Below are positions 31,316 to 36,434 of a stretch of DNA of 36,434 bases, in pieces; the stretch's first letter is position 1; every line of letters starts with the position of its first letter. A model generated the notes under the pieces. The model saw only the letters and a list, made by a program, of their open reading frames with translations. It did not search any database and was not told where the DNA came from. Source of the DNA: Verrucomicrobiota bacterium JB024 (GTDB lineage Bacteria; Verrucomicrobiota; Verrucomicrobiia; Opitutales; Cerasicoccaceae). The stretch spans positions 1 through 36,434 of the forward strand of contig JAUTCS010000157.1 of the NCBI GenBank assembly GCA_030673825.1, in the 5' to 3' direction. Both the position numbers and the translations under genes were made by a program.

Positions 31316-32359
31316 ATGAAAAAAGCACTCATCACGGGTATCACCGGTCAGGACGGTTCTTATCTCGCGGAGCTTCTGCTGGCCAAAGGCTACGAGGTCC
31401 ACGGCGTTATCCGACGCGGCTCGACTTTTAACACGAGCCGGATCGACCACCTGTACAAGGACCCGCACGTCAATGGCGTGCGCCTGATCCTGCACTACGG
31501 TGACTTGGCTGACTCGGTTCAGATGGTGAAGCTGCTTTACGAGTTGAAGCCGGACGAGATCTATAACCTCGGGGCACAGAGTCACGTGCGCGTGTCCTTC
31601 GACATCCCCGAGTACACGGGCGATGTCGTCGGGCTGGCTGCCGTGCGCATGCTGGAGGCGATCCGCGAGGCCAACCTCGTGGGCAAGGTCCGCTACTACC
31701 AGGCCTCTTCCTCGGAGATGTTCGGTAAGGTGCACGAGGTCCCGCAAAAGGAGACCACGCCCTTTCACCCGCGCTCGCCTTACGGCTGCGCGAAGGTCTT
31801 TGCCTACTGGCTAACGGTCAACTACCGCGAGAGCTACGGCCTGCACGCCAGCAACGGCATCCTCTTCAACCACGAGAGCCCGCGCCGCGGCGAAACTTTT
31901 GTCACGCGCAAGATCACCCGCGCTGCCACCCGCATCAAGCTCGGCCTGCAGGACGCGCTCTATCTGGGCAACCTCGACGCGCAGCGCGACTGGGGCTACG
32001 CCAAGGAGTACGTCGAGGTTATGTGGCGGATGCTCCAGCAGGACAACCCGGACGACTACGTCTGCGCCACCGGCGAGACGCACACCATCCGCGAGTTTTG
32101 CCAGGAAGCCTTCGGTCTGCTCGACCTGGACTGGGAAAAGTACGTCAAATACGACGCCCGCTACGAGCGTCCTGCCGAGGTGGAGCTCCTCATCGGCGAC
32201 CCGGCCAAGCTCAAGAAGAACATCGGTTGGGAACCGCAGGTGAAGTTCAAGGAGCTGGTCAAGATCATGGTGGATGCAGACCTCCGGCTCGCCCAGCGCG
32301 AGATGGCCTGCGACGACGCCCTGACCCAGCAGAACCTGCACAACGACGTCGTGGCCTGA
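31316..32359 (+). CDS. gmd: GDP-mannose 4,6-dehydratase
   Basis: First step of GDP-L-fucose (and GDP-rhamnose, GDP-perosamine) synthesis. It has 347 residues. Rossmann motif [17 protein letters not shown] (6-22), family blocks [28 protein letters not shown], the catalytic Ser/Thr and Glu in [16 protein letters not shown] (Tyr and Lys of YxxxK), [20 protein letters not shown], and [18 protein letters not shown]. Fully typical. It stands alone between the AraC gene and a convergent glycosyltransferase. Its pathway partner fcl is about 7 kb to the left, so GDP-L-fucose is the likely product of the two. The gene is followed by the repeat cluster at 32412-32555. Confidence 0.96.
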
Positions 32360-32608: not shown

Positions 32609-33742
32609 TTATTGCAGCTCGCGGATCTTTTCGTAAATCTCATCGAGCGCGCGCTCGCGCAGGACGAAGAGCTCCTGTGCCACGGCTTGCGCGGCGCATT
32701 TTTTCTGCGCGAGCGTCTCGGGCGTCAGCCCGGCGAAAAACTCCCGCAACCCGGTCGCCATGTCTTCGTCCGGTGAAATACGCCAGGCGGCCTCGTGCAG
32801 GAGCCGCCAGTTGTCGTTGGCTTTGGTGCCGTGAAAGAGAAGGCTGCCGCCCTCGCACACTGCGCTAACGGCCTTCGAGGGGACGCAGATGTGGTCCCAG
32901 CGCGGCAGCAGCGTGACCAGGTGCACATCGATGAAGCGCAGGTGCTCGCGCGGAACGCTCTCGAGCAGGACGATGCCCGGACGGCCTTTGGCCAGTGACC
33001 GAATACGCGTAGCCTTCGCGCCATAGGGGGCGAGGATCAGGCGGTGGCGCGTTGGGTCGATCTGTTCGAGGGTGGCCGCGACAAATTCCTCGCTATGGGC
33101 TTCGCCGAGATTTCCGGCGTAGCCGAGGATGATCTTACCGTCCTGCCGGGCCCACTCGGGCCGCTCCGGCTCGGCTCCCGAGCTGACGATCCCGCAGGGA
33201 AACACGGTGACGGACGGCGGCTGCTTAAAATACCGGCAGACGTGTTCCGCCTGCGCCTCCCCCAGCGCGATCACGTGGCTGGGCGGGTTGGCCGTGACGC
33301 TCTTTGCCAGCCAGCGGTAAAGGGGATTGCGCTCGCTCGTAAGCCCCGCCGCCAGGAATGCCTCGGGGTACAGATCCATCGTCCAATACAGCCAGCGCAG
33401 CTTACGCCGGCGTGCGAGCCGCGCCAGCCAGACGTTGAGCAGCGGTGGGTTCGTCATGCAGATGATGGGGCCGTGGTGCAGGTCGGCGGCGAGGCGGGCC
33501 ATTGTCCGCCCCTCCCGCACGCTGTCGAGCAGGCGCAGGAGCTTATTCTTTCCCTCATAGCGGCGCGGGAGCAGGCGTATGGGTTTCCCTGCGGGGCGTC
33601 CCTCGGGCGAGGCGGGGTCACGCACGGCCACGATCTCGACATCCACCCCGCGCCCGGCGAGGTAGTGCGCCAGCTCGGTGGCGGAGTGGCTGTTGATGTT
33701 TTCGCGGCAGGGGATGTCGCGGTTGACGAGGGTGCAGCGCAT
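32609..33742 (-). CDS. Glycosyltransferase, GT-B fold (GT4-like)
   Basis: Sugar transferase of 377 residues from ATG 33742. The N-terminal domain starts CTLVNRDIPCRENINSHSATELAHYLAGRG and reaches the acceptor-side YWTMDLYPEAFLAAGL. The C-terminal nucleotide-sugar domain has KIILGYAGNLGEAHSEEFVAATLEQ, LAPYGAKATRI and VLLESVPREHLRFIDVHLVTLLPRWDHICVPSK, which is the pattern of GT-B enzymes with the Lys/Glu donor-binding region. No signal peptide or membrane helix is seen. It follows the epimerase gene at 16 bases and is co-transcribed with it. Donor and acceptor sugars are unknown. A role in surface polysaccharide is inferred from neighbours. The frame could extend to 33907, but the added residues are not family-like. 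Confidence 0.82.
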   Translation of the reverse strand: MRCTLVNRDIPCRENINSHSATELAHYLAGRGVDVEIVAVRDPASPEGRPAGKPIRLLPRRYEGKNKLLRLLDSVREGRTMARLAADLHHGPIICMTNPPLLNVWLARLARRRKLRWLYWTMDLYPEAFLAAGLTSERNPLYRWLAKSVTANPPSHVIALGEAQAEHVCRYFKQPPSVTVFPCGIVSSGAEPERPEWARQDGKIILGYAGNLGEAHSEEFVAATLEQIDPTRHRLILAPYGAKATRIRSLAKGRPGIVLLESVPREHLRFIDVHLVTLLPRWDHICVPSKAVSAVCEGGSLLFHGTKANDNWRLLHEAAWRISPDEDMATGLREFFAGLTPETLAQKKCAAQAVAQELFVLRERALDEIYEKIRELQ

Positions 33743-33758
33743 CGGGAATGGTTTCGTG

Positions 33759-34811
33759 TCAGGCCCGGCGTTCGCGCCAGCTGGCGAGGATTTCGCCAAA
33801 AATGTCGTCGAGGCTTTTAGTGATGTCCCAGTCCGGGTAGTGCTGGCGCATCTTCGAGAGATCGCTGTAGTAGCAGATGTGGTCGCCCTCGCGGTTCTGG
33901 TCCACATAGCGGTGCTTCATCGGCTGGCCGCTGAGCGCCTCGATGCGGGCGAAGGCTTCGAGGATGGAGCAGCTGTTGGCCTTGCCGCCGCCGAGGTTAT
34001 AGACCTCGCCCGCGCGGGGCGCCTGGCTGAAGGCCCACATGAACCGCGCCACGTCGAGTGCGTGGATGTTGTCGCGGACCTGTTTGCCCTTGTACCCGAA
34101 GACCGTGTACTCGCGCCCTTCGAGGTTGCACTTGACCAGGTAGCTGAGAAACCCGTGCAGCTCGACGCCGGAGTGGTTGGGGCCGGTCAGGCAACCGCCG
34201 CGCAGGCAGCAGGTGGGCAGGCCGAAGTAGCGCCCGTACTCCTGCACCATGACGTCCGCGGCGACCTTGGACGCGCCGAAGAGCGAGTGCTTCGACTGGT
34301 CGATGGTGAAAGTCTCCGCGATGCCTTTCGCGAAGGCCGGGTCGGCGTAGTCCCAGCGCGTGTTCAGCTCCTGGAGCGGGATGCGGTTCGGGGCGTCGCC
34401 GTACACCTTGTTGGTGGACATGTGGATAAAGGGGCTCTCCGGGCAGCACTGACGGGCGGCCTCCAGCAGGTTGAGCGTGCCCCCGGCGTTGATGTCGAAA
34501 TCGTCGAAGGGGATCTGCGCCGCCTTGTCGTGCGAGGGCTGGGCCGCGGTGTGCACGATCACATCCGGGTGCAGGGTCTTGAGCAGGTCGCGGACTCCGC
34601 TCCGGTCACGGATGTCCAGCTCGTGGTGGGTGAACTGCGGGAGACTCTTTTGCAGGCGTTGCTGGTTCCACCGTGTGTCCCCCGCTTCTCCGAAAAAGAC
34701 CGCCCGCTGGTTGTTGTCGATGCCATGGACGGCGAAGCCCTGCCCGGCGAAAAACGCGCACACCTCCGAGCCGATGAGGCCGGAGGAGCCAGTGACGAGG
34801 AGTTTTTTCAT
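33759..34811 (-). CDS. NAD-dependent epimerase/dehydratase (CDP-tyvelose 2-epimerase-like)
   Basis: Extended SDR enzyme of 350 residues. Rossmann motif [12 protein letters not shown] (6-17), [22 protein letters not shown] (128-139), then the long family stretch [20 protein letters not shown] and [16 protein letters not shown], shared with CDP-paratose/tyvelose 2-epimerase-like proteins. At the catalytic YxxxK the protein reads SLFGASK: Phe178 stands in for Tyr, while Lys182 stays. I believe this Phe is found in other members of this branch. It is upstream of and co-transcribed with the glycosyltransferase and diverges from cysC. Products cannot be named with certainty; no CDP-hexose pathway genes (rfbF, rfbG, rfbS) are in the window. 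ATG 34811 gives the proper N-terminus [11 protein letters not shown]. Confidence 0.82.
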
Positions 34812-34983
34812 GATTGGTGAAGAGAGGCGCGGGGCCGGGGGAAGGCTGGATGGTTGCGGCGGGATACGGGCTTCTTTTTTCACAATTACCGCCCCCTTGG
34901 CAAGGCCGGAGCGCCCGAAAGGACAGTAGGAAAAACGCAAAGAGGGCTTTGCCTTCCGGGCGCATTGTGTTCTAGTTGCCCCG

Positions 34984-35592
34984 ATGAATCCCTCCCAGCC
35001 CGAACACCTCTACCCGCAGTTCGAACGCATGCTCTCCCGCCAGGAGCGCGAGACGCGCCTCGGGCAGCGTTCGCATGTGTTCTGGCTGTACGGGCTCTCG
35101 GGCTCGGGCAAGAGCACGCTCGCCGTTGCGCTGGAGAAGTCCCTTTTCGCGCAGGGGCGGATCGTCCAGGTGCTCGACGGCGACAACATCCGTACCGGCC
35201 TGAACAGCAACCTCGGCTTCAGCGACGAGGACCGCACGGAAAACATCCGGCGTATCGCCCACGTGGCGAAGCTCTACGCGCAGTCCGGGCTGATCGTGAT
35301 CACGTCCTTTATCACGCCCCGGGAGGACCTGCGCCAGTTGGCCCGCGAGATCATCGGGCCGGAGGATTTTTCGGGGGTGTACGTGAAAGCGTCGTTCGAG
35401 GCTTGCGCCGCGCGGGACCCCAAGGGTCTCTACGCCAAGGTCAAGGCCGGACAGGTCAAGCAGTTCACGGGCAAGGACTCGGGCTTTGAGGAGCCCGCCG
35501 CTCCCGAGCTGCTCATCGACACCGAGCGTGAAAGCATCGAGCAGAGTCTGGAGCACCTGCTCGCCTACGCGACCCCCAAGATCGTACGGTAA
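34984..35592 (+). CDS. cysC: Adenylylsulfate (APS) kinase
   Basis: Phosphorylates APS to PAPS, the donor for sulfation and for reductive sulfate assimilation. It has 202 residues. P-loop [17 protein letters not shown] (residues 35-51), the sulfonucleotide-binding [46 protein letters not shown] and the short C-terminal lid with [21 protein letters not shown] are complete. Stand-alone CysC, not fused to an ATP sulfurylase. cysD lies about 240 bases downstream on the same strand, so sulfate activation genes cluster here. CysC with neighbours for surface sugars may feed sulfation of polysaccharide rather than only cysteine synthesis; this is inference. ATG 34984 is the first sensible start. Confidence 0.95.
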
Positions 35593-35833
35593 ATCGCGTC
35601 GGGTTGTTCTTTGGGGGTGCTTATATTCCCGAAGCGTGACTCGTTTGAAAATATTCGGTTAAGAGCGGAACCTCATGCCTCTCGAAGCTTGCCCCGGCGG
35701 TACTCACTGTGATTAAATGAGCAAAATCTGTCGCCGCCCGTTTGCGCGGTGGCCGTTTCCCTCTCCGTCCAGTAACACTCACGTTTCTGGTTGTTATATC
35801 CCATATAAATTTTCTTCTCCGACATACATTCCG
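35593..35833. other. 241-base gap between cysC and cysD
   Basis: No gene is seen. AT-rich near the cysD start. It holds the perfect inverted repeat TTATAT-CCC-ATATAA at 35794-35808. An in-frame ATG at 35717 upstream of cysD would add 39 residues not typical of the family. Confidence 0.5.
35794..35808. promoter_or_regulatory. Inverted repeat upstream of cysD, possible operator
   Basis: TTATAT (35794-35799), CCC, ATATAA (35803-35808): perfect six-base arms, 26 bases before ATG 35834. It could be a sulfur-responsive repressor site, but no regulator is identified. Confidence 0.35.
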
Positions 35834-36415
35834 ATGCACACCTATCGAGTCAGTCATTTGAATCAGCTCGAAGCCGAGTCGATTTACGTTTTGCGCGAAT
35901 TTGCGGCGCAGTTTGAAAAGCCGGTGCTCCTTTTTTCCGGGGGCAAGGATTCGATCGTGATGGCGTGGCTGGCGCGCAAGGCGTTTTGGCCGGCGCGGTT
36001 GCCGTTCCCGTTGATGCACGTGGACACGGGGCACAACTTCAACGAGACGATGGCGTACCGGGACGAGTTCATCGCGGACATCCGGGCGGACTTGATCGTG
36101 GCGAGCGTGCAGGAATCGATCGACAAGGGCCGGGTGGTGGAGGAGAAGGGCCCGAAGGCCAGCCGCAACGGCCTGCAGACGGTGACGCTGCTGGACGGGA
36201 TCGAGGAGCACGGTTTCGACGCCGCCCTCGGCGGCGGACGCCGCGACGAGGAAAAGGCCCGGGCCAAGGAGCGTTTTTTCTCGCACCGCGATGAGTTCGG
36301 CCAGTGGGACCCGAAGAACCAGCGCCCCGAGCTGCGCCCCGCTCCGCATTTCAACAAGGTCGTCTCCTTCATCATACGTAATCCCTTGCCACGGCGGCCC
36401 CGCGCCGGCCCTTGA
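35834..36415 (+). pseudogene. cysD: Sulfate adenylyltransferase subunit 2, C-terminus replaced
   Basis: CysD is the catalytic ATP-sulfurylase subunit that makes APS with the GTPase CysN. Residues 1-167 are clearly CysD: VLLFSGGKDSIVMAWLARKAF (PP-loop SGGKDS at 35-40), LMHVDTGHNFNETMAYRDEF, and the signature GGGRRDEEKARAKERFFSHRDEFGQWDPKNQRPEL. A normal CysD goes on for about 130 residues (RPELWNLYN...). Here the sequence abruptly changes to RPAPHFNKVV... and stops after 26 unrelated residues at 36415. I see no continuation in the other two frames, so a simple frameshift does not explain it. It could be an insertion, a rearrangement, or a faulty assembly end, because the window ends soon after. 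No cysN is visible. ATG 35834 is the usual start. Confidence 0.7.
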
Positions 36416-36434
36416 GAAGCTCGAAATCGCACCC
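36335..36434. other. Junction sequence replacing the end of cysD
   Basis: From about 36335 to the window edge, the sequence no longer matches CysD in any frame. I recognise nothing in it. It might be the edge of a mobile element or an assembly join. Confidence 0.45.

Follow-up and report, generated by a model that had tools for sequence, protein, structure and literature searches.

The DNA analysed here (hereafter the window) is 36,434 nt in length and represents the entire contig C157, base 36434 being the contig end, from an assembly of 4.6 Mb in 163 contigs that is 95.14% complete. Its final part contains three polysaccharide-type genes, the sulfate-activation gene cysC and the beginning of cysD, and the contig ends before any cysN gene. 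The features are as follows:

31316-32359, + strand: GDP-mannose 4,6-dehydratase gene (polysaccharide-type neighbour)
32609-33907, - strand: glycosyltransferase gene (polysaccharide-type neighbour)
33759-34940, - strand: NAD-dependent epimerase gene (polysaccharide-type neighbour)
34984-35592, + strand: cysC (adenylylsulfate kinase; PF01583)
35829-36334, + strand: repeat common to C157 and contig C139 (12590-13095 of the latter), 96% identical by sequence comparison; likely cause of the contig break
35834-36334, + strand: genuine 5' part of cysD (sulfate adenylyltransferase subunit 2), codons 1-167 (PF01507; protein identity with the C139 copy)
36334-36434, no strand assigned: foreign tip, identical (101/101) to Nitratireductor indicus C115 (NZ_AMSI01000007.1), where it has a native gene context

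The cysD reading frame starts with the ATG at 35834 and encodes 167 CysD residues, ending in ...WDPKNQRPEL at 36332-36334, after which it continues through 26 unrelated residues to a stop codon at 36413-36415. Base 36334 is the last CysD-compatible base of the contig, the approximately 100 terminal bases being unrelated to cysD, and as this base (a G) is compatible with both sides of the junction, the junction overlap amounts to one base. Codons 1-167 carry the PAPS_reduct-type domain expected of a CysD protein, scoring 88.8 bits with PF01507 (cut-off 22.5) and covering profile positions 2-129 of 175, and the encoded residues are identical to those of the intact CysD protein specified by contig C139 of the same genome. 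Frame reading and the comparison with C139 thus confirm the initial annotation, which had described a CysD protein up to WDPKNQRPEL followed by unrelated sequence and a stop. The mechanically called open reading frame (35717-36415) starts 39 codons ahead of 35834, the likely CysD start; it is this latter position that corresponds to where the C139 copy and its relatives begin.

The C157 product is thus a CysD of the PF01507 family over codons 1-167, the absence of its C-terminal half being due to the end of the contig. A six-frame search identified no CysD C-terminal half on C157, although it is the contig that stops at this point and the organism's gene may not. The rest of the genome was also searched for the missing half (136 aa), as the initial annotation had proposed, and this returned one significant match, on C139 (E 7.7e-91), the two remaining matches listed up to E 10 being at chance level (E 0.248 and 1) and likewise located outside C157. 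An indel or frameshift in cysD is consequently ruled out within the assembled sequence, the C-terminal half being significant solely on C139, and the corresponding claim of the initial annotation, i.e., that no frame continues CysD, holds to the same extent.

The origin of the terminal stretch was revealed by a single scan of the genome_contigs collection, from which the genome of the window and those closest to it may be omitted, with a 20-base pattern taken from the tail: its only match was to the alphaproteobacterium N. indicus C115 (NZ_AMSI01000007.1). Alignment showed that all 101 bases of 36334-36434 are identical to positions 689-789 of the 8 kb N. indicus stretch compared, the identity stopping where cysD stops and ending with the contig. 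The N. indicus counterpart spans the junction of two ordinary metabolic genes, the first, an IlvD/Edd dehydratase gene encoding 575 aa (PF00920 and PF24877, both complete), contributing its 3' end and the second, of the Ceramidase_alk type (PF04734), its start; the first 245 codons of the latter gene lie in the stretch compared. No other significant match to the tail was obtained in the window's own genome (best E 0.121 over 29 bases), while the 35 relatives examined gave short, weak matches only (best E 0.0115 over 24 bases). It is from such weak matches only that the organism of the window is taken to be distant from Nitratireductor. The remainder of the 8 kb stretch yielded only diverged matches to the assembly, at 70-83% identity, among the 40 of 97 first-look candidates that were scored. 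Based on the complete identity with N. indicus, the native gene context there and the lack of another significant match in its own genome, the tail is considered native to N. indicus and alien to the genome of the window. Base composition lends no support to a foreign origin, as the GC contents of the tail (63%) and the window (64%) show no difference.

The cysD gene is also duplicated in this genome. The intact cysD of C139 encodes 303 aa and is 96% identical to C157 over 35829-36334, exactly up to base 36334. A PF01507 search of the genome identified three genes, i.e., the cysD genes of C157 and C139 and one on C102. Between codons 1-167 of the two cysD copies 18 codons differ, all of which are synonymous and none nonsynonymous, whereas the expected synonymous share of unconstrained single changes is about 23-28%, so that the chance of obtaining 18 out of 18 is about 1e-10 to 2e-12. 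This is explained by selection on both copies or by gene conversion, the data fitting either. Furthermore, two C-terminal ends of cysN are present in the genome, close to one end of C42, where 126 codons of cysN remain before the contig terminates, and of C145, which holds 383 cysN codons. Of 378 bases compared these two ends share 369, seven synonymous and two nonsynonymous codon differences separating them, and their similarity is lost directly after the stop codon. The two cysDN loci are accordingly near-identical in the coding sequence compared and unrelated in their flanks, similarity extending from 5 bases before the cysD ATG to just after the cysN stop. The assembly contains a single cysD 3' half. 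It is because the genome holds these two near-identical loci that C157 was probably broken at cysD codon 167.

The ends of the contigs provide information on how the assembly was generated. A total of 86 of the 326 contig ends were compared (80 starts, four of which consist of N only, and six more), among which six pairs show an end-to-end overlap or a common prefix, five of 141 bases and one of 140; a few other pairs share 31-mers without an end-anchored overlap. One of the six pairs is that of C139, which ends inside cysN, and C145, with an overlap of exactly 141 bases. As these overlaps are constant at 141 bases, they point to a k-mer assembly. The MEGAHIT assembler has a default maximum k of 141 and merges similar paths, and it is presumably the program with which the present assembly was made. 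Co-mention of 'MEGAHIT' and 'k-max 141' in the literature fits 141 as a usual setting. Such path merging would account for the missing 3' half of the second cysD copy. The idea that the tail represents one 101-base read was dropped, given that the 141-base overlaps imply longer reads.

The end of C157 is very likely a misassembled contig tip, that is, a repeat-broken end inside a duplicated gene to which a chimeric foreign tip is attached, rather than a biological feature. Chimeric contig tips at repeat breaks are a known class of artefact in short-read assemblies, with which C157 shares foreign sequence located at the extreme tip of the contig and inside a repeat, as well as overlaps of a constant 141 bases among several contig ends of the assembly; no difference from this class was seen. 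According to this explanation, the short-read graph would have broken inside the two near-identical cysDN gene pairs, such that C157 would stop within cysD, at codon 167, and roughly 100 bases of Nitratireductor DNA would have become joined to the dangling end, probably via a chimeric read or fragment. The presence of a single cysD 3' half in the assembly counts against this reading, for which the half of the second copy is assumed to have been merged or lost. The real C157 cysD gene very likely continues to its full length and is followed by cysN. Of the three possible causes offered by the initial annotation (an inserted element, a rearrangement, misassembly at the contig end), it is the last that fits, on account of the 101/101 foreign tail and the position of the contig tip within a duplicated gene, the other two being improbable.

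One alternative, albeit a very improbable one, is a real and recent horizontal insertion of a Nitratireductor chromosome fragment into one of the two cysD genes that a distant bacterium carries, with the other copy performing the work. The sharp junction and the complete identity of the tail to a natural gene region are compatible with such an event, and disruption of one cysD could be tolerated with an intact copy existing on C139; however, the identity to N. indicus reaches no further than the contig does, what remains of the donor stretch being present in the assembly only as the diverged matches described above, the donor stretch is the junction of two ordinary metabolic genes with no recognisable mobile element, and the 167 codons that were kept display no nonsynonymous change relative to the C139 copy. 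Apart from the junction, nothing speaks for such an event. A transposon end, as a particular form of insertion, was also considered and received no support from the genome, the relatives or the phage and plasmid records. The tail has no other significant copy in its own assembly, whereas an inserted element would be expected to recur, and searches of the 35 relatives and of phage and plasmid records likewise produced non-significant or weak, short matches only. At E up to 1, one phage record and five plasmid records matched over 24-35 bases (E 0.2 to 0.9); one chance-level plasmid piece (34 bases, E 0.8) falls under a gene annotated as a transposase and was given no weight. The inserted element suggested by the initial annotation thus left no transposon-end signature in the window's own genome or in the phage and plasmid records searched.

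A genuine short CysD, or a pseudogene, with a C-terminus of its own would be in keeping with the open frame, which closes at the stop at 36413-36415. This is considered extremely improbable, as the C-terminus in question is encoded by bases identical to unrelated genes of another bacterium. When the cysD region of C157 was compared with 35 relatives, with up to 14 candidates being scored for each genome, 22 gave a match at E up to 0.001 and 13 did not. For 18 of these 22 relatives the best match extends to query position 734 or 735, corresponding to 36333 or 36334 of the window, and for the other four to query positions 731, 732, 722 and 432. Similarly, all 20 plasmid matches to 36200-36434 among those listed (of 299 records) end at 36333 or 36334. 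The normal CysD C-terminal half is present in all 21 loci of relatives that were tested (L015-L035, leaving aside L036 and L037 with their short partial matches), none of which has the short form of C157. The initial annotation had noted that homologues sharing the same C-terminus would indicate a genuine short form, and this case is unsupported by the relatives. There is also no sign of cysD decay, since all 18 codon differences between the copies are synonymous.

A rearrangement that fused cysD with a different region of the same chromosome, for which the different surroundings of the two cysDN loci might be cited, is just as improbable, the tail being identical to foreign DNA and having no other significant match in its own assembly (best other hit the 29-base piece at E 0.121). 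As the assembly is 95.14% complete, this absence would not suffice as proof by itself.

With the end of C157 regarded as a misassembled tip, the predicted 193-aa 'CysD variant' should stay out of databases as a protein, the last 100 bases of C157 should be treated as foreign, and the case serves as a caution. It also emerges that the genome carries two cysDN loci, one of which has the only detected cysC beside polysaccharide genes, and that this arrangement was hidden by the broken assembly. For three of three congeners examined, cysC, cysD, cysN and an oxoprolinase-type gene are found in a row, with an upstream HAD-type gene in two of the three; the names oxoprolinase and HAD for the locus neighbours are assigned from the look of the sequence. 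In the present assembly the gene order is HAD, cysD, a 23S_rRNA_IVP-type open reading frame and the start of cysN on C139; the end of cysN followed by the oxoprolinase gene on C42; epimerase, cysC and the start of cysD at the end of C157; and cysN followed by glycosyltransferases, again named from the look of the sequence, on C145. A natural pairing would place C139 with C42 at the ancestral location and C157 with C145 at the polysaccharide location. The 141-base overlap joins C139 to C145 and not to C42, which is to be expected if the shared part collapsed during assembly.

Based on its polysaccharide-type neighbours on C157, the second cysD copy may serve a sulfated polysaccharide. The cysC gene of C157, which lies directly upstream of cysD, is the only APS kinase gene found in the assembly by a PF01583 search. 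The C139 locus lacks cysC at the place where the three congeners have it, and the sole cysC sits with the polysaccharide-linked copy. The 23S_rRNA_IVP-family open reading frame between cysD and cysN on C139, at 2486-2857 of the C139 piece L002, also occurs in one of the 21 relatives' loci searched, at 2438-2791 of L019, where it is 65% identical.
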